This document shows, piece by piece, positions 4,521 through 57,314 of a stretch of DNA of 64,000 bases. Source of the stretch: Modestobacter sp. VKM Ac-2977 (lineage in GTDB: Bacteria > Actinomycetota > Actinomycetes > Mycobacteriales > Geodermatophilaceae); the NCBI RefSeq assembly GCF_026968045.1, contig NZ_JAPVBQ010000003.1, positions 652,060-716,059 on the forward strand, in the 5' to 3' direction. The position numbers were made by a program, and so were the translations under genes. The notes under the pieces are model-generated. The model searched no databases. It saw nothing but the letters and a program-made list of their open reading frames with translations, and was not told the origin of the DNA. Position 1 is the first letter of the stretch. Every line of letters begins with the position of its first letter.

Positions 4521-5987
4521 TCAGTCGGCCTGGGTGGCGTGCGGCAACCGCACGGTGAACGCGGTGTGCCCCGGGGTGCTGGCCAGCTCCACGCTGCCGC
4601 CGTGCGCGGCGACGACGGCGTGCACGATCGCCAGCCCCAGCCCGGTGCTCCCGGCCGAGCGGGACCGGGAGGCGTCGCCGCGGGCGAACCGCTCGAAGAC
4701 GTGTGCCTGGAGTCCGGCGGGCACCCCCGGGCCGTCGTCGAGGACCTGCAGCACCGACTCGCCGCCCATCACCCGCAGTCGAGTGGTGACGGTCGTTCCG
4801 TCGGGGGTGTGCGTGCGGGCATTGCCCAGCAGGTTGACCAGCACCTGGTGCAGCCGGGCGGCGTCGCCGCTCACCAGCACCGGGGTGTCGGGCAGGTCGA
4901 GCTGCCAGCGGTGGTCGCGCCCGGCGACGTGGGCGTCGCTGACCGCGTCCACGACCAGGGCGGTGAGGTCGACCTCCTCGGAAGCGAGCTCCCGGCCGGC
5001 GTCGAGCCGGGCCAGCAGCAGCAGCTCCTCGACCAGGGCCGACATGCGCAGCGCTTCGGATTCCACCCGCCGCATCGCGTGGCCGACGTCCCCGGCGACC
5101 TCGGTGTGCTGCCGTCGGACCAGCTCGGCGTAGCCGCGGATGGAGGCCAGTGGGGTGCGCAGCTCGTGGCTGGCGTCGGCGACGAACTGGCGCACCCGGG
5201 TCTCGGACTCCTGGCGGGCGGCCAGCGAGCCCTCGACGTGGTCGAGCATCCGGTTCAGCGCCGCGCCGACCTGGCCGACCTCGGTGGCCGGGTCGGTGTC
5301 CTGCGGGGCCACCCGCTCGGCCAGCTGCACCTCGCCGCTGGCCAGCGGCAGCTCGGAGACCCGGGTCGCGGTGGCCGCCACCCGGTCCAGCGGCGCCAGG
5401 GTGCGGCGGATGACCAGCACGGCGGTGCCCGCGGCGGCGAGCAGGGCGGCCAGCCCGGCCAGCAGCTCGACGGTGACCAGGTTCCGGACGGCGTCGGAGG
5501 CGCCGCTCAGCGGCAGGCCGTTGACCAGCACCTCGCCGTCCGGGGCGGTGACGGCCACCAGCCGGTAGTCGTCGAGGTCGCCACCGAGGTCACGGGTGAC
5601 CGGCCCGCCGTCGACGGGGAGGTCCGCCAGTACGTCGTCCTGGGCGTCGGTCAACGGCTGCGGAGCGCCGCTCCGGCCCACCACCCCGGAGCCGGTGACG
5701 GCCCCGTCGGTCAACTCGGCGACCAGGGTGCCCTCGCCCTGGCCGCGGGCGTCCAGGCCCTCCGGCCCGCGCCGGCCGTCGTCGTCGGGTCCCCGCCCAC
5801 GGTCGGGGTCCAGTGAGCGTTCGATGACCGCCGCCAACCGTGCGTCGACCTGACCGACCAGCTCCGAGCGCAGCGCGGTCACCGAGACGACGCCGACCAG
5901 GGTCAGCACCAGCACGAGCGGGACGACGAAGGCGATCAGCAGCCGGGTGCGCAGCGAGCGGCGGGACCGGGGAGGACTGCCGGTCAC
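4521..5987 (-). CDS. Two-component sensor histidine kinase
   Basis: Protein of 488 residues. TM1 is at about 15-37, followed by an extracytoplasmic sensor region (about 40-165) rich in Asp and Gly. TM2 is at about 172-193, with HAMP at about 194-253. The HisKA domain has FVADASHELRTPL with phospho-acceptor His274. The HATPase has an N-box (NLLGNARTHTPDG), DDGPGVP and the G2 segment GSTGLGLAIV. It is the second gene of an operon, 16 bp downstream of its cognate response regulator. The signal sensed is not evident. The architecture is like MprB/TcrY-type OmpR-class kinases. Confidence 0.88.
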   Translation of the reverse strand: MTGSPPRSRRSLRTRLLIAFVVPLVLVLTLVGVVSVTALRSELVGQVDARLAAVIERSLDPDRGRGPDDDGRRGPEGLDARGQGEGTLVAELTDGAVTGSGVVGRSGAPQPLTDAQDDVLADLPVDGGPVTRDLGGDLDDYRLVAVTAPDGEVLVNGLPLSGASDAVRNLVTVELLAGLAALLAAAGTAVLVIRRTLAPLDRVAATATRVSELPLASGEVQLAERVAPQDTDPATEVGQVGAALNRMLDHVEGSLAARQESETRVRQFVADASHELRTPLASIRGYAELVRRQHTEVAGDVGHAMRRVESEALRMSALVEELLLLARLDAGRELASEEVDLTALVVDAVSDAHVAGRDHRWQLDLPDTPVLVSGDAARLHQVLVNLLGNARTHTPDGTTVTTRLRVMGGESVLQVLDDGPGVPAGLQAHVFERFARGDASRSRSAGSTGLGLAIVHAVVAAHGGSVELASTPGHTAFTVRLPHATQAD

Positions 5988-6003
5988 CGGGAGGGGACAG
6001 ACG

Positions 6004-6744
6004 TCATGCGGCGGGCTTGATCACGTACCCGGCGCCCCGGAGGGTGTGGATCATCGGCGGGCGACCCGCGTCGATCTTGCGCCGCAGGTAGGAGATGTAG
6101 AGCTCGACGATGTTGCCCTGGCCGCCGAAGTCGTACTGCCAGACCCGGTCGAGGATCTGCGCCTTGGACAGCACCCGCTTGGGGTTGCGCATCAGGTAGC
6201 GCAGCAGCTCGAACTCGGTGGCGGTCAGCCGGACGTCCTCCCCGGCCCGGGTCACCTCGTGGCTCTCCTCGTCCAGGGTCAGGTCGCCGACGACCAGCAG
6301 GCCGTCGTCGGCCACGACCCGGCTGGTGCGGCGCAGCAGGCCGCGCAGCCGGGCGGCGACCTCCTCCAGGCTGAAGGGCTTGGTGACGTAGTCGTCGCCG
6401 CCGGCGGTGAGCCCGGCGATCCGGTCCTCCAGCGCGTCCTTGGCGGTCAGGAAGACCACCGGGACCAGGGGGGTGTCCGCGCGCAGCCGGCGCAGCACCT
6501 CCAGACCGTCCATGTCGGGGAGCATGACGTCCAGGACGACGGCGTCCGGGCGGAACTCGCGGGCTTCGCGGACCGCAGCGGTGCCGTCGGGGGCGGTGCG
6601 GACGTCCCAGCCCTCGTAGCGCAGCGCCATGGACAGCAGTTCACAGATCGAGGGCTCGTCGTCGACGACCAGCACCCGCAGGGCGCTACCGTCCGGCCGG
6701 GTGAGCTGGGCGCGGGAGCTGGACGCGGGGGAGGTGGTCGTCAT
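6004..6744 (-). CDS. OmpR-family response regulator
   Basis: Protein of 246 residues. The receiver domain has VDDE acidic residues and phospho-acceptor Asp72 in LDVMLPDMDG, with the KPF lysine in YVTKPFSLEE. A C-terminal winged helix (TEFELLRYLM ... YISYLRRKID ... TLRGAGYVIK) follows. The frame stays open much further upstream, across the tRNA genes; ATG 6744 is used because the product then begins just before the receiver domain, as in the family. It is cotranscribed with the kinase downstream (16-bp gap). It probably controls its own operon and membrane or stress genes; targets are unknown. Confidence 0.9.
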   Translation of the reverse strand: MTTTSPASSSRAQLTRPDGSALRVLVVDDEPSICELLSMALRYEGWDVRTAPDGTAAVREAREFRPDAVVLDVMLPDMDGLEVLRRLRADTPLVPVVFLTAKDALEDRIAGLTAGGDDYVTKPFSLEEVAARLRGLLRRTSRVVADDGLLVVGDLTLDEESHEVTRAGEDVRLTATEFELLRYLMRNPKRVLSKAQILDRVWQYDFGGQGNIVELYISYLRRKIDAGRPPMIHTLRGAGYVIKPAA

Positions 6745-9096: not shown

Positions 9097-9984
9097 ATGA
9101 GCCTGTTCGGTGTGCTGGACCGCCTGTCCGAGGTGTCGTCGTTCGACGCGAAGCTGGAGTCCGCCCGGACGGCGGTGAACAAGGTGCTGCAGCCACAGGC
9201 GTTCCGCGACCTGCTGCACGGCACCTGGCTGGGCCATCCGCTGCACCCGATCCTGGCGATGGTGCCGGTGGGCACCTGGCTGTCGGCCGGGATCCTGGAC
9301 CTCATGCCCCCGGCCCGGCCGGCCGCCACCGCGCTGATCGGCACCGGGGTGGCGGCCAGCCTGCCCGCGGCGATGGCCGGCGCGGCCGACTGGTCCGAGC
9401 AGGACGACGCCGTCCGGCGGCTGGGGGCCATCCACGCCGCCGCCAACGTCGCCGCTCTGGGGCTGTACGTCGGCTCGCTGGTCGCCCGCGGCAAGGGCAA
9501 CGGCACGCTCGGGCGGGTGCTGGCCTACAGCGGCCTCGGCCTGGCCAGCGGCTCGGCGGCCATCGGCGGCCACATGTCCTACGCGCAGTCCTCGGGTGCG
9601 AACCACGCCGTCACCGACGCCCGGCAGCTGACCACCGACTGGATCGACCTCGGCCCGCTCGACGACCTGCCGGAGGGGCGGCCCGCGCTGCGCACGGGCG
9701 AGGGCCGGGGCACGCCCGTGGCGCTGGCCGTGGTGCGCCGGGGCGCCCGGGTGGACGCCTTCATCAACTCCTGCGCGCACGTGGGCGGGCCGCTGGCCGA
9801 GGGCACCGTGGAGCAGGTGCGCGGGTCGGACTGCATCGTGTGCCCGTGGCACGGCTCGGCCTTCGACCTGGAGAGCGGCGAGCCGCGCCGGGGCCCGACG
9901 GCGTCGGCGCAGGAGCGGCTCGAGGTCAAGTACGAGGCCGGCCGGGTGCTCGGCAAGCTGCCCAACCGGCACGTCTCGAAGTGA
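9097..9984 (+). CDS. DUF2231 membrane domain fused to Rieske [2Fe-2S] protein
   Basis: Protein of 295 residues. The N-terminal half is a DUF2231-type four-helix membrane domain (LHGTWLGHPLHPILAMVPVG and three further hydrophobic segments to about residue 165). The C-terminal half is a Rieske ferredoxin domain with the cluster ligands in CAHVGGPLAEG and CPWHGSAFDL (C-x-H ... C-x2-H), about residues 222-255. It probably transfers electrons at the membrane to an unknown partner. ATG 9097 is chosen; ATG 9085 is an in-frame alternative. The gene stands alone behind a stress-type promoter candidate. Confidence 0.85.
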   Translation: MSLFGVLDRLSEVSSFDAKLESARTAVNKVLQPQAFRDLLHGTWLGHPLHPILAMVPVGTWLSAGILDLMPPARPAATALIGTGVAASLPAAMAGAADWSEQDDAVRRLGAIHAAANVAALGLYVGSLVARGKGNGTLGRVLAYSGLGLASGSAAIGGHMSYAQSSGANHAVTDARQLTTDWIDLGPLDDLPEGRPALRTGEGRGTPVALAVVRRGARVDAFINSCAHVGGPLAEGTVEQVRGSDCIVCPWHGSAFDLESGEPRRGPTASAQERLEVKYEAGRVLGKLPNRHVSK

Positions 9985-23738: not shown

Positions 23739-23771
23739 CGCGGCCGTCCCCGGCCGTGTCAGGCTGGGGAC

Positions 23772-23789
23772 GAGCCCGGCACCGGGCTC
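23772..23789. repeat. 18-bp palindrome between dehydrogenase and SMR genes
   Basis: GAGCCCGG-CA-CCGGGCTC is a palindrome with perfect 8-bp arms and a 2-nt centre, flanked on both sides by ACGAG. It is 33 bp after the dehydrogenase stop and 55 bp before the SMR start. It could be an operator or a terminator; there is no T-tract. Confidence 0.5.
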
Positions 23790-23844
23790 CCGGACGAGCG
23801 CGCCGTACCCGGACAGCGACAAGACGGTGCACCAGGAGGCCCCG

Positions 23845-24159: not shown

Positions 24160-24180
24160 CCGCGCCCGCTCTGCACGCGT

Positions 24181-24224
24181 TCCGGGCGCTCTGCACGCGC
24201 CGCAGCACGTGCAGAGCGCCCGGA
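24181..24224. terminator. Strong bidirectional terminator
   Basis: A perfect 17-bp inverted repeat, TCCGGGCGCTCTGCACG and its complement, has a 10-nt loop between the convergent SMR and MFS genes. A partial direct copy, GCTCTGCACGCG, also lies just upstream at 24168-24179, as in repeated intergenic elements. Confidence 0.8.
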
Positions 24225-24243
24225 GAGCGCGCAATGCGAGCTG

Positions 24244-26827: not shown

Positions 26828-29800
26828 GTGACCACCCCGCACGACGACCTCCGGTCCCGGCTGTCCGCACTCACCCTCGCCGACGAGCACCGGCTCCGCC
26901 GACGGCTCGACGGCACCCGGCGCACCAAGGACGCGGCCGCCCGCGCCCGCCAGCACGAGCAGATCGCCGCGGACGTCGCCGCCGCCGAGGAGCGCATCGC
27001 CCGCCGTCGCGCCGCCGTCCCGGTGGTCAGCTACCCGGAGGAGCTGCCGGTCAGCCAGCGCCGCGAGGACATCGCCGCCGCGCTGCGCGATTCCCAGGTG
27101 GTCGTGGTGGCCGGCGAGACCGGCTCGGGCAAGACCACCCAGCTGCCGAAGATCCTGCTCGAGCTGGGCCGCGGGGTGCGCGGCCGGATCGGGCACACCC
27201 AGCCGCGGCGGCTGGCCGCCCGCACGGTGGCCGAGCGGATCGCCGAGGAGATCGGCTCCCCGCTGGGCGAGACCGTCGGCTGGAAGGTCCGGTTCACCGA
27301 CGAGGTCGGCGACAAGACGCTGGTCAAGCTGATGACCGACGGCGTCCTGCTGGCCGAGGTGCAGCGCGACCGGATGCTGCGCCAGTACGACACGATCATC
27401 ATCGACGAGGCCCACGAGCGGAGCCTCAACATCGACTTCCTGCTGGGCTACCTGGCCCGGCTGCTCCCTCGCCGTCCGGACCTGAAGCTGGTCATCACCT
27501 CGGCGACCATCGACGTCGACCGGATCGCCAAGCACTTCTCCGGCCACTCCCACCAAGATGGCCATTCTGGTGGTGGGGAGGGGGACGGCGCACAGGTGCC
27601 GGTGGTCGAGGTCAGCGGGCGCACCTACCCGGTCGAGGTCCGCTACCGGCCGGTGATCGACCCCGACGAGCCCGAGGCCGACCCGGACCGGGACCAGGTC
27701 TCGGCGATCGTCGACGCCTGCGCCGAGCTGGTCGCCGAGGGGCCGGGCGACGTGCTGGTCTTCCTGGCCGGCGAGCGGGAGATCCGGGACACCGCCGAGG
27801 CCCTGGGCGGGACGACGGAGCGCAACGGCACGCCCATCGACGTCCTGCCGCTCTACTCCCGGCTGTCGGCCGCCGACCAGCACAAGGTCTTCCAGGCGCA
27901 CACCGGCCGCCGGATCGTGCTGGCCACCAACGTCGCCGAGACGTCACTGACGGTGCCCGGCATCAAGTACGTCGTCGACCCGGGCACCGCGCGCATCTCC
28001 CGGTACAGCCATCGCACGAAGGTGCAGCGGCTGCCGATCGAGCCGGTCAGCCAGGCCTCGGCCCGGCAGCGCTCCGGCCGGTGCGGGCGCACCAGCGAGG
28101 GCATCGCGATCCGGCTCTACACCGAGGACGACTTCGACGCCCGGCCGGAGTACACCGACCCGGAGATCCTGCGCACCAACCTGGCCTCGGTGCTGCTGCA
28201 GATGGCCTCGCTCGACCTGGGCGACGTCGCCGACTTCCCGTTCATCGACCCGCCGGACCGCCGGGCGGTCGCCGACGGCCTCGCCCTGCTGACGGAGCTC
28301 GCCGCGCTGGACGGCGACGGCAAGCTCACCGAGACCGGGCGGGCGCTGGCTGCCCTGCCGCTGGACCCCCGGATCGCCCGGATGGTCGTGGAGGCCGACC
28401 GGCGCGGCGTGCTGGAGGAGGTGCTGGTCATCGCCGCCGGCCTCACCGTGCAGGACGTGCGGGAGCGCCCGGCCGAGCACCAGCAGGCCGCCGACGAGCT
28501 GCACAAGCGGTTCGCCGACGAGAACTCCGACTTCCTCGCCCTGCTGAACCTGTGGAGCTACCTGGCGGAGCGGGCCGAGGAGCTGTCGGGCAACCAGTTC
28601 CGGCGGACCGTGAAGAAGGAGTTCCTGCACTACCTGCGGATCCGGGAGTGGCAGGACCTGCACGGTCAGCTGCGCAGCACCGCCCGCCGGCTGGGCATGA
28701 CCACCGGCTCGCTGGCCCCGGCGCCGGACGAGCGGGGCGTCACCGCGTCACTGCTGGCCGGGCTGCTCTCCCAGGTCGGCATGCAGGCCGAGCCGGTCAA
28801 GGACCGCAGCGGCAAGCCCGGCCGGCCCGGCCGGGAGTACCTGGGCACCCGCAACACCCGGTTCGTGATCGCCCCGGGCACCCCGCTGGCCAAGAAGCCG
28901 CCGCGCTGGGTGGTCGCCGCGGAGCTGGTCGAGACCAGCCGGCTCTTCGCCCGCACCGTGGCCCGGGTGGAGCCCGAGGTGGTCGAGCGGCTGGCCGACC
29001 ACCTGGTGAACCGGCAGTACAGCGAGCCGCGGTGGGACGCCAAGCGCGGCTCGGTCGTGGCCACCGAGCGGGTCACCCTCTACGGCCTGCCGCTGGTGGT
29101 GGGCCGGCGGGTGCAGTACGGCTCGATCGACCCGGTCGTCTCCCGCGAGCTGTTCATCCGGCACGCCCTGGTCGACGGCGAGTGGACGACGCACCACACG
29201 TTCTGGGCGGCGAACCAGGCCGCGATCGAGCGGGTCGCCGAGCTGGAGGAGCGGGCCCGTCGCCGCGACATCCGGGTGGACGACGAGACGGTGTTCGAGC
29301 TCTACGACGCCCGGGTGCCCGCCGACGTCGTCTCCACCCGGCACTTCGACCGCTGGTGGAAGGAGGCCCGGCGGGCCCAGCCGGACCTGCTGAGCTTCAC
29401 CCCGGAGATGCTCACCAACGCCGCGGCTGCCGGGCAGGTGCAGGCCGAGGACTACCCGGACGAGGTGCGGCTGACCCAGGGGCTGACGCTGCCGCTGTCC
29501 TACGCGTTCGCCCCGGGAGCGGCCGAGGACGGCGTCACCGTCGACGTCCCGCTGGGCGTGCTGGACACGCTGGCTGCGACCTCCGGGGAGTCGTTGGCGT
29601 TCACCGTGCCCGGGCAGCGGGCCGAGCTGGTCACCGAGCTGCTGCGCTCCCTGCCCAAGCAGCTGCGCCGCGGCCTCGTGCCGATCCCCGACCGGGTGCG
29701 CGAGGTGCTGCCGGCCATCGACCCCACCGAGCCGCTGCTGCCGGCGCTGGAGCGCGAGCTGCGCCGGGCCACCTCGGTCGTCATCCCGCCCGACGCCTGG

Positions 29801-30823
29801 CAGCCGGCCGAGGTGCCCGCCCACCTGCGGGCGACCTTCCGGGTGCTCGACGACCAACAGCGTCCGCTTGCCCAGGGCAAGGACCTGACCGCGCTGCGCG
29901 CCGAGGTGGCACCGCACGCCCGGGCCAGCCTGGCGCGGGCGGCGTCCACCTACGAGCGCACCGGTCAGACCAGCTGGACCTTCGGGGACCTGCCGGCGAC
30001 CGTGGAGGTGCAGCGCGGCGGCCACGTGGTCACCGCGTACCCGGCACTGGTCGACGAGGGCGCGACGGTCGGCGTCCGGGTGGTGGCCACCCAGGCGGAG
30101 GCGACCCGGCTGGGCTGGCGCGGCGCGCGGCGGCTGTTGGTGCTGGTCGCCGGGGCACCGGTCAAGCAGGTGGTCAAGGGGCTGGGCCCGCGCAGCCGGC
30201 TCGCGCTGCAGTTCAACCCGGACGGCGAGATCCCTGACCTGGTGGCCGACTGTGTGGACGCGGCGGCCGACGAACTCATCGCCGCGGGCGGCGGTCCGCC
30301 GCGCACCGAGGCGGCGTTCACCGCGCTGGTCGCCTCGGCGCGGGAGCAGCTGCTGCCGCTGACCTCCGACGCCGTCCGCCGGGTGGAGGCGGTGCTGACC
30401 CAGGCCCGCGAGGTCGCCATCGCCGTCGGTGCCGCGCCCGGACGCCGGGTGCCGGAGGCGGCGATCGCCGACCTGCGCGCCCAGATGGGCGGGCTGCTGC
30501 ACCGCGGGTTCGTCGCCACCGCCGGCCGACGCCGGCTGCCGGACCTCGTGCGGTACCTGACGGCCATGGCCCACCGGCTGGAGAAGCTGCCGGCGAACGC
30601 CGCCCGCGACGAGCTGTGGACCGCCCAGGTCGCCGCGGTGACGGCCGAGTACGCGCAGCTGCGTGCGGCGGCGCCGCCGACCGGGGCGCCGGACGACCCG
30701 GTCACCCGGGTGCGCTGGATGATCGAGGAGCTGCGGGTCGGCCTGTTCGCCCAGACCGTCGGCACCCCTCGGCCGATCTCCGAGCAGCGGGTCTACAAGG
30801 CGATCGACGCGATCAGCGCCTGA
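26828..30823 (+). CDS. hrpA: ATP-dependent RNA helicase HrpA (DEAH box)
   Basis: Protein of 1331 residues of the HrpA family. Motif I is GETGSGKTTQLPK (from 96), DEAH box at 193-196, motif III SATIDVDRIAKHF and motif VI QRSGRCGRTSEG. Helicase-associated and OB-like regions follow, then the long C-terminal DUF3418 typical of bacterial HrpA. It unwinds RNA and is linked to rescue of stalled or collided ribosomes. The insertion HSHQDGHSGGGEGDG (240-254) between motif III and VVEVSGRTYPVEVRY is encoded by a palindromic element and is absent from the usual family alignment. Start GTG 26828; RBS weak. Confidence 0.92.
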   Translation: MTTPHDDLRSRLSALTLADEHRLRRRLDGTRRTKDAAARARQHEQIAADVAAAEERIARRRAAVPVVSYPEELPVSQRREDIAAALRDSQVVVVAGETGSGKTTQLPKILLELGRGVRGRIGHTQPRRLAARTVAERIAEEIGSPLGETVGWKVRFTDEVGDKTLVKLMTDGVLLAEVQRDRMLRQYDTIIIDEAHERSLNIDFLLGYLARLLPRRPDLKLVITSATIDVDRIAKHFSGHSHQDGHSGGGEGDGAQVPVVEVSGRTYPVEVRYRPVIDPDEPEADPDRDQVSAIVDACAELVAEGPGDVLVFLAGEREIRDTAEALGGTTERNGTPIDVLPLYSRLSAADQHKVFQAHTGRRIVLATNVAETSLTVPGIKYVVDPGTARISRYSHRTKVQRLPIEPVSQASARQRSGRCGRTSEGIAIRLYTEDDFDARPEYTDPEILRTNLASVLLQMASLDLGDVADFPFIDPPDRRAVADGLALLTELAALDGDGKLTETGRALAALPLDPRIARMVVEADRRGVLEEVLVIAAGLTVQDVRERPAEHQQAADELHKRFADENSDFLALLNLWSYLAERAEELSGNQFRRTVKKEFLHYLRIREWQDLHGQLRSTARRLGMTTGSLAPAPDERGVTASLLAGLLSQVGMQAEPVKDRSGKPGRPGREYLGTRNTRFVIAPGTPLAKKPPRWVVAAELVETSRLFARTVARVEPEVVERLADHLVNRQYSEPRWDAKRGSVVATERVTLYGLPLVVGRRVQYGSIDPVVSRELFIRHALVDGEWTTHHTFWAANQAAIERVAELEERARRRDIRVDDETVFELYDARVPADVVSTRHFDRWWKEARRAQPDLLSFTPEMLTNAAAAGQVQAEDYPDEVRLTQGLTLPLSYAFAPGAAEDGVTVDVPLGVLDTLAATSGESLAFTVPGQRAELVTELLRSLPKQLRRGLVPIPDRVREVLPAIDPTEPLLPALERELRRATSVVIPPDAWQPAEVPAHLRATFRVLDDQQRPLAQGKDLTALRAEVAPHARASLARAASTYERTGQTSWTFGDLPATVEVQRGGHVVTAYPALVDEGATVGVRVVATQAEATRLGWRGARRLLVLVAGAPVKQVVKGLGPRSRLALQFNPDGEIPDLVADCVDAAADELIAAGGGPPRTEAAFTALVASAREQLLPLTSDAVRRVEAVLTQAREVAIAVGAAPGRRVPEAAIADLRAQMGGLLHRGFVATAGRRRLPDLVRYLTAMAHRLEKLPANAARDELWTAQVAAVTAEYAQLRAAAPPTGAPDDPVTRVRWMIEELRVGLFAQTVGTPRPISEQRVYKAIDAISA
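27550..27573. repeat. REP-like palindrome inserted in frame in hrpA
   Basis: The 24-bp sequence has arms CCACCA and TGGTGG around ATGGCCAT. An almost identical 24-mer (one difference) sits in the intergenic region at 57245-57268. Here it is read as Gly/His-rich residues and interrupts a conserved part of HrpA. Confidence 0.75.
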
Positions 30824-36872: not shown

Positions 36873-38482
36873 CCGTGGATTGGACCAGGCGGTCCGGCGG
36901 CCGGGTCAGGAGGGCCGGGCGCCTGGTCCGCCGGCGGGGCGGGCGGGCCGGACCGGGGCAGGTGGACGGCGAACGTGGCGCCCTCGCCGGGGGCGGTGCG
37001 CAGTTCGACCCGCCCGCCGTGCGCCTCGACCAGCGCGGCGACGATGGACAGCCCGAGACCGGTGCCCCCGGCGGCCCGGGTGCGGGAGGAGTCGGCCCGG
37101 TAGAACCGCTCGAACACCCGGTCGGCATCGGCCTGGGCCAGGCCGGGGCCCTCGTCGCCGACCTCGAGCACCAGCCAGCCGGGCTCGGCCCGGTCCTCGG
37201 CCACCCGGATGGTCACCCGGGTCTCGGCGGGGGTGTGGGTCAGCGCGTTGGTGACCAGGTTCCCGATCACCTGGTGCAACCGCGCCTCGTCGCCCCGTAC
37301 GACCGGGACGTCGGTGAGCGAGGGGTCCAGCTGCAGGCTGACCGGCCGGTCCGGGGCGACGGCGCGGGCGTCGTGCACGGCGTCCCCGGCCAGCTCGGCC
37401 AGGTCGACGGGCGTCAGTGCCAGCGGCCGCTGCTGGTCCAGCCGGGCCAGCTGCAGCAGGTCCTCGACGAGCAACCCCATCCGGGTCGCCTCGGACTCGA
37501 TCCGCTGCATGAGCCGGCCGGTGTCCTCCGGGCCGTGGACCGCGCCCTGGCGGTGCAGCTCGGCGAAGCCGCGGATGGAGGTCAGCGGGGTGCGCAGCTC
37601 GTGGCTGGCGTCGGCGACGAACCGGCGCATCCGGGCCTCGGAGGCGACGGCGTGCTCCTCCGAGGCCTGCTGAGCGCGGAAGGAGCTCTCGATCCGGCCG
37701 AGCATGCCGTTGAGTGCCTGCGACAGCCGGCCGACCTCGGTCCGGTCGTCGCCGTCGGGCACGCGCCGGGACAGGTCGCCGGCGGCGATCGCCTGGGCCG
37801 TGTGCTCGACCTCGACGAGGGGCCGCAGGCTGTTGCGCACCACCAGGTAGCCGGCGACCCCGAGCACCGCGAGGACCAGCAGGCCGACGATGAGCTCGAT
37901 CCGCACCAGCCGGCCGAGGGTCTCCTCGTCCTCGGCGAGGTCCAGCCCCACCAGGAGGACGGCCTCTTCGCTGAACGGGGTGGCGGGCACCCGGGTCGCG
38001 CCCACCCGCCAACTGGTCCGCCCGTCCGCCGAGCGGGCGGTGAAGACCTGGGTCCCGTCGACCGACGCCGGGTCCAGGCCGCTGACGTCGGGGAGGCCGC
38101 CGTCGTCCCGGGGGCCCGTCGCGACCCACACGGTGTCGTCCTCGGCGCCGAGGTCGGCGCAGGCGGTGTACTGGTTGCTCGGGAACCGCATCTCCCCGGG
38201 GGAGCAGAGCCGGGGGACCACGTACGGCTGCGAAGCCAGCTGGTCCAGCGTCCGGGCCAACTCGGTGTCCTGCTGCTCGACCAGGTAGTCGCGCAGCAGG
38301 GAGGTCGCGGCGAAGCCGGTGGCGGCCAGGGCCGCCGCGACCAGGGCCACCATCAGCGCCACGAGGGTGACCCGCAGCGGGATCCGGGGCGCGGAGCCGC
38401 GGACCGGGTGCTCCGCCTGCGCACCTGCGGATGACGGGGTCGTCGCCGGCTCCACCGGCGTTCTCGGGGCGGTGGCGGTCAC
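36869..38482 (-). CDS. Two-component sensor histidine kinase
   Basis: Protein of 537 residues. TM1 is at about 37-62, the extracytoplasmic sensor at about 65-195 (three cysteines or fewer) and TM2 at about 197-216. HAMP follows, then HisKA with FVADASHELRTPL (His294) and a HATPase with DEGPGLAQAD and GGTGLGLSIV. The C-terminal tail is Pro-rich. GTG 38482 overlaps the regulator stop (GTGA), and its own stop overlaps the thioesterase start. It is closely related in architecture to the kinase at 4521. The signal is unknown. Confidence 0.88.
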   Translation of the reverse strand: MTATAPRTPVEPATTPSSAGAQAEHPVRGSAPRIPLRVTLVALMVALVAAALAATGFAATSLLRDYLVEQQDTELARTLDQLASQPYVVPRLCSPGEMRFPSNQYTACADLGAEDDTVWVATGPRDDGGLPDVSGLDPASVDGTQVFTARSADGRTSWRVGATRVPATPFSEEAVLLVGLDLAEDEETLGRLVRIELIVGLLVLAVLGVAGYLVVRNSLRPLVEVEHTAQAIAAGDLSRRVPDGDDRTEVGRLSQALNGMLGRIESSFRAQQASEEHAVASEARMRRFVADASHELRTPLTSIRGFAELHRQGAVHGPEDTGRLMQRIESEATRMGLLVEDLLQLARLDQQRPLALTPVDLAELAGDAVHDARAVAPDRPVSLQLDPSLTDVPVVRGDEARLHQVIGNLVTNALTHTPAETRVTIRVAEDRAEPGWLVLEVGDEGPGLAQADADRVFERFYRADSSRTRAAGGTGLGLSIVAALVEAHGGRVELRTAPGEGATFAVHLPRSGPPAPPADQAPGPPDPAAGPPGPIHG

Positions 38483-39255
38483 GAGCCGCGGGGCAGGCGC
38501 AGCGAATAGCCCACGCCGCGCAGCGTGTGCAGCAGCCGTGGTTCGGTGGTGTCGATCTTGCGACGCAGGTAGGAGATGTAGGACTCGACCACGTTGGCCT
38601 CGCCGTTGAAGTCGTAGTTCCACACGTGGTCGAGGATCTGCGCCTTCGACAGCACCCGGCCGGCGTTGGTCATCAGGTAGCGGAGCAACTTGAACTCCGT
38701 CGGCGACAGGCTGACCAGCTTGCCGGCCTTGAGGACCTCGTGTGACTCCTCGTCGAGCTCGATGTCGGCGAAGGTCAGCCGCGGTGCCTCGGTGGGCTGC
38801 TGCACGCTCTGGGTGCGGCGCAGCACCGCCCGGATGCGGGCCAGCACCTCGTCGAGGCTGAACGGCTTGGTGACGTAGTCGTCCCCGCCGAGGGTCAGCC
38901 CGGTCACCTTGTCCTCGCCGGCGTCCCGGGCGGTCAGGAAGAGCACGGGGGTGTGCGAGCCGTTCTGACGCAGCCGGCGGACGACGCCGAAGCCGTCCAG
39001 CCCGGGCATCATCACGTCCAGCACGAGCAGGTCGGGGCGGAACTGCTCCACGACTGACAGGGCCTGCTGCCCGTCCGGCGCCGTCGCCACCTCGAACCCG
39101 GCGTACCGGAGGCTCGCCGACAGCAGTTCACGGATGTTCGGCTCGTCGTCGACGACCAGGAGCCGGGCCTCGGGCCGCTGGGCGCCGGGAGTCGGTGAGC
39201 TGGAGCTGGTGGTGGACACGTCCCTCCCCGATGGACCCTGCGGCGGCGTCGTCAT
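38479..39255 (-). CDS. OmpR-family response regulator
   Basis: Protein of 258 residues. The receiver has VVDDE at 34-38, phospho-acceptor Asp80 in LVLDVMMPGLDG and YVTKPFSLDE. The C-terminal winged helix (SPTEFKLLRYLM ... YISYLRRKIDTTEPRLLHTLRGVGYSLRL) is complete. ATG 39255 begins a ~28-residue Ser/Thr-rich lead before the receiver. First gene of an operon with kinase and thioesterase. It is a clear paralogue of the regulator at 6004. Confidence 0.9.
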   Translation of the reverse strand: MTTPPQGPSGRDVSTTSSSSPTPGAQRPEARLLVVDDEPNIRELLSASLRYAGFEVATAPDGQQALSVVEQFRPDLLVLDVMMPGLDGFGVVRRLRQNGSHTPVLFLTARDAGEDKVTGLTLGGDDYVTKPFSLDEVLARIRAVLRRTQSVQQPTEAPRLTFADIELDEESHEVLKAGKLVSLSPTEFKLLRYLMTNAGRVLSKAQILDHVWNYDFNGEANVVESYISYLRRKIDTTEPRLLHTLRGVGYSLRLPRGS

Positions 39256-41220: not shown

Positions 41221-42273
41221 TCAGGACGAGCTGTCCGCGTCGGCCGCCTCCTCCTCGGCGATCTCCTCCGCGCCACGGCGACGGAGCAGCCGCGACCCCG
41301 GGAACCCCTTCACCACCTGGCGCATGTCCTGCACGGTCTCCACCAGGGTGTGCACGTCCGGTGCGACGTCGCTCAGCGTCAGCAGCACCGGGAGCAGGTC
41401 CTCGTCGAGGTGCACCACCAGGTCGGGGAGCCGGTCGACCAGGGTGATGATCGCGGTGACCTCGTCGGTGTGCAGCTCCTCGGCGAAGCGGGTCAGGACC
41501 GGGGCCAGCGTGGTCAACGCGGGGCGGTAGTCGTCGAGCAGCGGGGAGATCGCCGCGAGCAGCGCCTCCGCGCGGGCCAGCGTGCCGTCGGCATCGCCGG
41601 CCGTGCCCGTGACTGCGGTGAGGAGCGCATCGGCGGCATCGGTGGACCGGCTGATCCGGGCGACGGACTCGTCGGCGGCGTCGTTGGTGACGCCGATCCG
41701 GGCGACCGACCGGTCGGCGGCGTCGTTGGTCACGCCGATCCTGGCCACCGAGGCGTCCGCGGCGTCGTTCGTGACCCCGATCCGGGCGACGGCGGCGTCC
41801 GCGGCGTCGTTGGTCACCCCGATCCGTGCGACGGACTCGTCGGCGGCGTCGTTGGTGACGCCGATCCGTGCGACGGACCGGTCGGCTGCGTCGTTCGTGA
41901 CGCCGATCCGGGTCACCGCGGCGTCTGCGGCGTCGTTGGTGACGCCGATCCGTGCGACGGACTCGTCGGCGGCGTCGTTGGTGACGCCGATCCGGGCGAC
42001 GGCGGCGTCGGCGGCGTCGTTGGTCACCCCGATCCTCGCGACGGCCTCGTCGGCGTGGGCGCGGGTGACGTCGATGCCGGCGACCGCCACCTCGGCCCGG
42101 TCGGCGATGCGTTCCATCCGGTCGACCAGCACCCCGACGCGCTTCAGCAGCTGTTCACCCTCGCTGAGGGCCCCCACCACCCGGGGCAGCAGGGCGAGGG
42201 CCTCGGCGACGCCGTCGCGGAGGCCCTCGGCGGCGTTCAGCACGTCCGACGGTCCGGGAAAGGGCAACTTCAC
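41221..42273 (-). CDS. Coiled-coil protein with nine 14-residue repeats
   Basis: Protein of 350 residues. The N-terminal region (1-78) is VKLPFPGPSDVLNAAEGLRD-like. It is followed by nine near-identical ARIGVTNDAADxSV repeats (79-204), one degenerate repeat, and a C-terminal domain (LDDYRPALTTLAPVLTRFAEEL ... DLVVHLDEDLLPVLLTL). Fourteen residues equal two heptads, so a long coiled coil is likely. The ends resemble a widespread actinobacterial family, sometimes mislabelled as a RuBisCO large subunit, that has no known function. GTG 42273. It is divergent from the LCP gene. Confidence 0.75.
   Translation of the reverse strand: MKLPFPGPSDVLNAAEGLRDGVAEALALLPRVVGALSEGEQLLKRVGVLVDRMERIADRAEVAVAGIDVTRAHADEAVARIGVTNDAADAAVARIGVTNDAADESVARIGVTNDAADAAVTRIGVTNDAADRSVARIGVTNDAADESVARIGVTNDAADAAVARIGVTNDAADASVARIGVTNDAADRSVARIGVTNDAADESVARISRSTDAADALLTAVTGTAGDADGTLARAEALLAAISPLLDDYRPALTTLAPVLTRFAEELHTDEVTAIITLVDRLPDLVVHLDEDLLPVLLTLSDVAPDVHTLVETVQDMRQVVKGFPGSRLLRRRGAEEIAEEEAADADSSS
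41662..42039. repeat. Nine tandem 42-bp coding repeats
   Basis: Nine contiguous 42-bp units encode ARIGVTNDAAD plus three variable residues (AAV, ESV, RSV or ASV). Variation is mostly synonymous or at those positions, which suggests recent expansion or gene-conversion between units. Copy number probably varies between strains. Confidence 0.92.
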
Positions 42274-57242: not shown

Positions 57243-57314
57243 CGCCACCAAGATGGCCATTGTGGTGGCGACTGGAGCCGGTAGGGCCAAGATCGCGACT
57301 TTGGCCCTACCGGC
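57243..57314. repeat. Two adjacent palindromic elements, convergent terminators
   Basis: Element A (57243-57270) is CGCCACCA-AG-ATGGCCAT-TG-TGGTGGCG; its central 24-mer also lies inside hrpA (27550). Element B (57277-57314) has perfect 14-bp arms, GCCGGTAGGGCCAA and its complement, with TCGCGA in the loop. They fill the space between the convergent DUF885 gene and the next gene. They look like REP-type mobile palindromes used as terminators. Confidence 0.7.

Follow-up and report, generated by a model that had tools for sequence, protein, structure and literature searches.

The DEAH-box RNA helicase gene hrpA of the window, by which the whole stretch of 64,000 nt that was analysed is meant, carries an in-frame insert. 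The insert is probably one member of a family of palindromic repeats, REP-like and non-autonomous, that is found in Modestobacter and its relatives. Members of such a family normally lie directly behind stop codons, where they can form hairpins in DNA or at the 3' end of the transcript, and an occasional copy would land in a gene. Such a copy would be expected to persist only at protein ends or in linkers that can accommodate additional residues, in most cases read in the phase that encodes a hydrophilic peptide of the Gly/His/Asn or Gly/Gln/Arg/Asp type. This case would extend in-frame palindromic insertion, known for REPs and for Rickettsia elements, to a genus of high-GC actinobacteria whose genomes gave no hit for the usual transposase.

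The hrpA gene was identified at 26828..30823 on the + strand by its open reading frame, its coding score and its alignment to E. coli HrpA. It contains the 24-mer CCACCAAGATGGCCATTCTGGTGG at 27550-27573, a copy of the palindrome designated family A, CCACCAAAATGGCCATTTTGGTGG, which was assigned by a repeat scan and a genome-wide pattern count. A further copy with one change was located by the repeat scan and the gene calls at 57245-57268, between convergent genes, with its 18-bp core 13 nt past a stop codon. Both places, one in hrpA and one intergenic, had been reported in a first-pass annotation and were recovered by the scan of the window. No third place matches the 24-mer in the window with up to three mismatches, and the expected number of matches in shuffles of the window is 0.00. 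The element had been described as palindromic, which is correct for the family A consensus, a perfect palindrome, but only approximately for the 24-mer itself, in which 10 of 12 pairs are Watson-Crick and the mismatches are A/C and G/T. A pattern search and RNA folding identified a copy of a second palindrome, family B (GGGGCCAAAGTCGCGACTTTGGCCCC), at 57277..57314, with the core CCAAGATCGCGACTTTGG at 57287-57304 and ten paired bases per side; this core begins 39 bp past the core of the neighbouring A copy.

In the genome from which the window was taken (G000, 4.31 Mb), the exact pattern CCAAGATGGCCATTNTGG is present five times in forward and three times in reverse orientation. With up to three mismatches, the degenerate A 18-mer gave 40 forward and 43 reverse matches, compared to 3 and 0 for the reversed control, and the family B pattern CCAAAGTCGCGACTTTGG gave 33 and 33, compared to 0 and 0. 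A chance repeat was ruled out by the shuffles and by these counts, so that the 24-mer does not represent merely two accidental occurrences, an outcome which the first-pass annotation had itself considered. For further analysis, 74 sites (38 A, 36 B) were scored, defined as matches within four mismatches whose centre reads GGCC or CGCG, taken from the sequence retrieved around each listed place; two of these, C1:713906 and C10:107738, lack a pairing arm and are possibly chance matches, and a window match at 9443 with four mismatches was excluded. Four A-B pairs were identified with spacings of 30-39 bp. The exact 18-bp A core was found in 97 stretches from named genomes; among the 80 listed, which were tallied by hand from the record titles, 55 are from Modestobacter, 10 from Blastococcus, 3 from other Geodermatophilaceae or Frankiales and 12 from scattered bacteria. 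No match was obtained in phages for the A pattern, in plasmids for the B pattern or in viral contigs for either, and Rfam gave nothing at gathering scores at the palindromes. A literature search, in which coverage of subscription journals was limited, returned no report of either repeat, and in the accessible part of a paper on Geodermatophilaceae genomics (PMC9686282) both passages containing 'palindrom' concern CRISPR.

The layout is CCACCA AAATGGCCATTT TGGTGG for A and GGGGCC AAAGTCGCGACTTT GGCCCC for B, with consensus lengths of 24 bp and 26-28 bp, respectively, and the motif CCAAA...TTTGG is common to families A, B and E. In A, base pairing of the arms extends to about 16 bases on either side of the centre. 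Beyond the shared core, the flanks of A are locus-specific yet complementary on both sides, and at 11-16 bases from the centre the pairing exceeds that of reshuffled arms (z 2.0 to 5.3). For B, a clear excess was identified in the outer arms at position 14 only (z 2.9), and also at core position 7 (z 4.0). The hairpin is not uniformly conserved, since variation at the inner AT positions of A is not accompanied by compensating changes and the B arms pair above reshuffling at few positions. The variation in A looks as if AT-rich young copies were decaying towards GC.

The positions of the copies relative to genes were determined with a home-made gene caller based on codon usage, for which the window served as training set. 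Coding sequence makes up 87% of the window, yet only 12 of the 74 sites overlap called genes. Among the 62 intergenic copies, 49 lie within 30 nt past a stop codon, compared to 11.9% of control placements, with a median distance of 12 nt; the stop is nearer than the start for 48, compared to 24% in the control. The surrounding genes are convergent in 19 cases, tandem in 36 and divergent in 6, with one case unassigned. The genome-wide count of genic and intergenic copies proposed in the first-pass annotation thus revealed dozens of copies, strongly extragenic. This location, with its convergent and tandem neighbours, also fits an explanation which we regard as unlikely, namely that selection maintains the palindromes as mRNA 3' ends or as terminators of transcription in both directions, where the hairpin is kept at gene ends while its sequence is renewed, and replacement of one family by another is terminator turnover. 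In agreement with this, the intergenic copies have mean RNA hairpin energies of about -24 (A) and -28 kcal/mol (B) in 50 nt, and other post-stop hairpins of unique sequence are present in the window. However, the A hairpins exceed the remaining post-stop sequence of the window (-21.0 kcal/mol, sd 8.5) only slightly in stability, and the T-tract that follows the hairpin of an intrinsic terminator is absent, the T fraction outside the hairpin (0.13) being that of the window, which is still compatible with termination that uses no T-tract. Moreover, selection for a hairpin would not yield the same 18-mer dozens of times, and it leaves the copies between tightly packed tandem genes and those inside genes, with RNA hairpins of -21 kcal/mol, unexplained. 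Elsewhere in the window, at 24164-24241, a near-perfect hairpin of CTCTGCACGC-like repeats lies between convergent genes and is possibly a member of another palindrome family.

Inside genes, 9 of the 12 copies are read in one phase (p=0.004), which gives a hydrophilic peptide, HQNGHFGG-like for A and GQSRDFGP-like for B; neither consensus contains a stop codon in any phase. By best NCBIfam match, the host genes other than hrpA code for NuoN, CobG, a putative cobaltochelatase, a protein like a caprolactamase subunit, MeaB, the small subunit of methylmalonyl-CoA mutase (MutA), the beta subunit of lysine 5,6-aminomutase, EutC and KdpA, where the matches of NuoN, CobG (just), MutA and the caprolactamase-like protein are under the curated cut-off. 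One further host gene has no NCBIfam match, and for the twelfth copy, C1:280989, the called start codon falls within the element. Several of the N-terminal copies, as read by eye, start a few nucleotides past an out-of-frame TGA, possibly the stop codon at which an overlapping upstream gene ends. For proteins of this kind, short Gly/His or Gly/Gln/Arg stretches can be repeat DNA and not the product of ordinary protein evolution.

As a separate observation, six of the 12 in-gene copies in the genome of the window (C1:144054, C1:173248, C11:432554, C11:434817, C9:112846 and C9:805487) are located in genes for cobalamin synthesis or cobalamin-linked enzymes, which we take cobaltochelatase, CobG, MeaB, MutA, lysine aminomutase beta and EutC to be. 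The corresponding number for genes ending at intergenic copies is 2 of 60, from a scan of 60 of the 64 listed genes (Fisher p=1.4e-4); the excess was noticed after the fact.

In hrpA, the inserted stretch GHSHQDGHSGGGEG occupies 27542..27583 on the + strand and was delimited by comparison with 19 empty and three other filled alleles of the genus; its 14 codons stand in place of one residue in empty alleles such as that of the sister species G002. Of the 891 residues translated from hrpA, residues 8-878 align to E. coli HrpA chains with 1079 bits. The insert faces a gap in E. coli HrpA, for which the first-pass annotation had stated only a short join, with 17 residues of the window protein opposite this gap. 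The gain of roughly 20 residues given there was too high, since the net gain is 13 relative to G002 (14 inserted, 1 replaced) and 17 relative to E. coli. By its alignment, the insert appears to sit between motif III and the VVEVSGRTYPVEV strand, in a linker. The AlphaFold model of this region, with a mean pLDDT of 49, was too poor to be used, so that the placement rests on the alignment and on the general anatomy of DEAH helicases. The insert is most likely neutral.

The distribution of the insert was analysed in a panel of 23 genomes of the genus, all of which contain hrpA. Only four, G000, G005, G006 and G017, carry the insert, and the remaining 19 have empty alleles with a short junction such as HFSTDGAQVP. 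On a tree built from hrpA without the insert, the carriers are scattered and four gains or losses are required, the starred branches forcing four; all of 500 shuffled labellings match this number of changes, so that the carriers cluster no better than shuffled labels. The sisters of three carriers, namely G002, G013 and G018, are devoid of the insert. Bases just past the core are common to G000, G005 and G017, so that four independent insertions are no more likely than a transfer of alleles from one species to another, and the patchy carriage suggests either such exchange or repeated gain and loss. In the wider family, hrpA was found in 75 of 76 genomes. Among the 62 matched genes from other genera, 37 were read (17 best-scoring loci returned and 20 picked by hand, some for long match spans); of these, 33 show neither a palindrome nor an expansion at the junction, three (G030, G034 and G052) have other short expansions, and in one, L329 of G041, this junction is occupied by another palindromic stretch, GCAATTCCGCGGAATTGC, which is partly repeated and whose palindrome is centred on CCGCGG. 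Comparing filled and empty alleles by eye revealed no clear target-site duplication at hrpA or at C1:172122. The presence of the insert in 4 of 23 genomes, the scattered carriers and the other palindrome at the same junction in another genus argue for the insertion reading of the first-pass annotation. The alignment of related HrpA proteins proposed there showed that the insert is not conserved in the family, and of the mobile palindrome which had kept the frame, the part that stands is a dispersed repeat gained, or lost, in frame, while its mobility is deduced from the distribution. It is extremely improbable that the insert modifies the function of HrpA and is kept by selection. The intact frame and the similarity just past the core in three of the four carriers would agree with a function, but most members of the genus, sister species included, do without the insert, and the junction is variable across the family.

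Orthologous places were also compared for other copies, with loci fetched by flanking DNA or protein independently of repeat content; both flanks had to match one locus, and identical segments were counted once. At C1:172122, behind cbiC, the 20 distinct segments from other genomes contain B in 4, A in 3, C in 4, D in 2 and none of the families in 7. For C1:173248, inside cobG, 19 segments gave B 5, A 4, C 3, D 1, another stem 1 and none 5. The neighbouring places C10:407202 and C10:407237 were each represented by 11 segments, with C 3, B 2, B together with A 1, D 1, E 1, another stem 1 and none 2 at the former, and A 3, C 3, D 1, E 1, another stem 1 and none 2 at the latter. At C10:408718, 2 of 7 segments have B and 5 none, at C10:408752, 1 of 7 has A and 6 none, and at the hrpA place, 3 of 20 have A and 17 none. 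Turnover of families is thus clear at three or four of the seven tabulated places, and the others show only presence or absence. At 44 places orthologous to B sites of the window's genome, A was identified in 28, B in 7, none in 6, and C, another stem and both A and B in one each, although these loci had been pre-selected for an A-like match and serve as an illustration from a biased set. Some orthologous positions are common to species beyond the expectation for random insertion.

Replacement of one family by the other was also identified inside genes. In the genes for cobaltochelatase, MutA, KdpA and the caprolactamase-like protein, A and B occupy the same protein position in different genomes and keep their phase relative to CCAAA...TTTGG, and the same was found for CobG between G019 and the window's genome; in KdpA, both versions have the same unusual phase. 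This opens a possible, though less probable, explanation, in which one palindrome is converted to another at its site, through recombination or template switching between palindromes, so that the sites are inherited and the cores are replaced. It would account for several families at one orthologous place, as at C1:172122 and C1:173248, for the retained phase at five in-gene places, including that in KdpA, and for the motif shared by A, B and E. The same picture would, however, result from selection for frame and hydrophilicity or from interspecies transfer of entire alleles; the in-gene sites number only five, the spacers next to the palindromes have in many cases been replaced completely, and C10:408718, C10:408752 and hrpA show only presence or absence. 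The same-phase swaps, above all the one in KdpA, lean towards conversion, but five cases under selection for frame do not decide. In a more specific form, to which we give rather little credence, Modestobacter would possess fixed palindrome addresses, both within proteins and downstream of genes, whose cores are overwritten in place by lineage-specific families, in the same phase and without a Y1 transposase; if so, the process would be hairpin-templated conversion and not insertion of new copies. Two readings are to be considered possible for the turnover, either repeated insertion and loss at a few tolerant addresses combined with interspecies exchange, or conversion of palindromes in place.

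Lineage specificity was seen for family C, GCCATGTTGGCCAACATGGC. With up to two mismatches, 5-74 copies of it were found in eight genomes and one copy each in G014 and G015, and none in 13 of the 23 genomes, including seven of the eight richest in A; the eighth is G015. Families A and C co-occur in G001, G009, G015 and G021, so that their exclusivity is not strict. Palindromes like GGTTTCGGCGCCGAAACC (pattern GGTTTN8AAACC) occur 7 to 22 times per genome in G004, G008, G009 and G001 and are absent from the genome of the window; an initial suspicion that they form a sister family was dropped, and they often occur in 24-bp tandem arrays of two or three.

In Neisseriaceae, DNA uptake sequences are short repeats that differ between lineages and can fold into hairpins downstream of genes. 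Families A, B and C may be compared to these, being lineage-specific repeats that would form hairpins in such a position, whereas A and B have far fewer copies and several families are present per genome. It is in our judgement very unlikely that the cores serve a DNA-binding protein as recognition sites or act as uptake-type sequences with dialects of the kind which PMC3630211 treats for Neisseriaceae. The conservation of part of the core in sequence without covariation and the lineage-specific occurrence of C, which is found in eight genomes and is absent from seven that are rich in A, would be in line with it, but only 74 copies were scored in 4.3 Mb, one genome contains several families, and G015, which is also rich in A, has a copy of C.

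The reading of the hrpA insert as a copy of a REP-like repeat was compared to known systems. REPs of the GTAG and CGTC super-families are described, in the part of PMC3733652 that was available, as palindromes of 20-40 bp, often in tens of copies, located mostly 3' of convergent or tandem genes with a minority in genes; different REPs were found at about the same recB site in two Xanthomonas species, and REPs of the CGTC kind had no link to a transposase. On this description, A and B resemble REPs in size, copy number, location after genes, the minority inside genes and different repeats at the same site. They differ in their perfect palindromic consensus without a separate loop, their high-GC actinobacterial host and the several families held at some orthologous places, and also with respect to the unpaired GTAG or CGTC tag at one end of a REP and to the Y1/RAYT gene that accompanies GTAG REPs. 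For GTAG, the share of flanks was 13% in A and 6% in B, compared to 7% in the control; for CGTC it was 53% in both, compared to 56%, so that neither tag is enriched. The Y1/RAYT (IS200-type) transposase family PF01797 gave no hit in any of the 23 genus genomes, compared to hits in 5 of 14 control genomes; a search for a RAYT transposase had been suggested in the first-pass annotation. Formal membership in the REPs therefore fails, and a RAYT-driven REP was rejected in this sense. The term REP-like is retained for a short palindrome with many copies, mainly after stop codons; its association with the tags and with RAYT did not hold. Judged from the genome sequences, the copying enzyme is not a detectable Y1/RAYT transposase, and we infer from the distribution that copies move or are copied. 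Because filled, swapped and empty alleles of the same sites are all represented among the 23 genomes, the spread and replacement of REP-like repeats without RAYT are directly testable.

Rickettsia palindromic elements, according to the accessible part of PMC10969869, are inserted in frame in unrelated protein genes and form several families per genome, with a length of about 150 bp. The A and B repeats resemble them, as far as described there, in that they lie in frame within protein genes and give rise to a recurring peptide, as seen for 12 in-gene copies of which 9 share a phase, and differ from them in a consensus of 24-28 bp in place of about 150 bp and in the extragenic location of most copies.

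Further repeats were noticed in the window. A coding tandem repeat extends over 41546-42168, where ten 245-nt windows, which are in register at 42-nt steps, are 67-86% identical to the reference. Two long similar blocks, 4570-6678 and 36987-39165, lie about 32.4 kb apart, with listed pieces 71-91% identical, and are perhaps duplicated two-component systems, although this assignment is a guess. In addition, a Guanidine-III riboswitch was identified at 23769-23833 with 65.6 bits.
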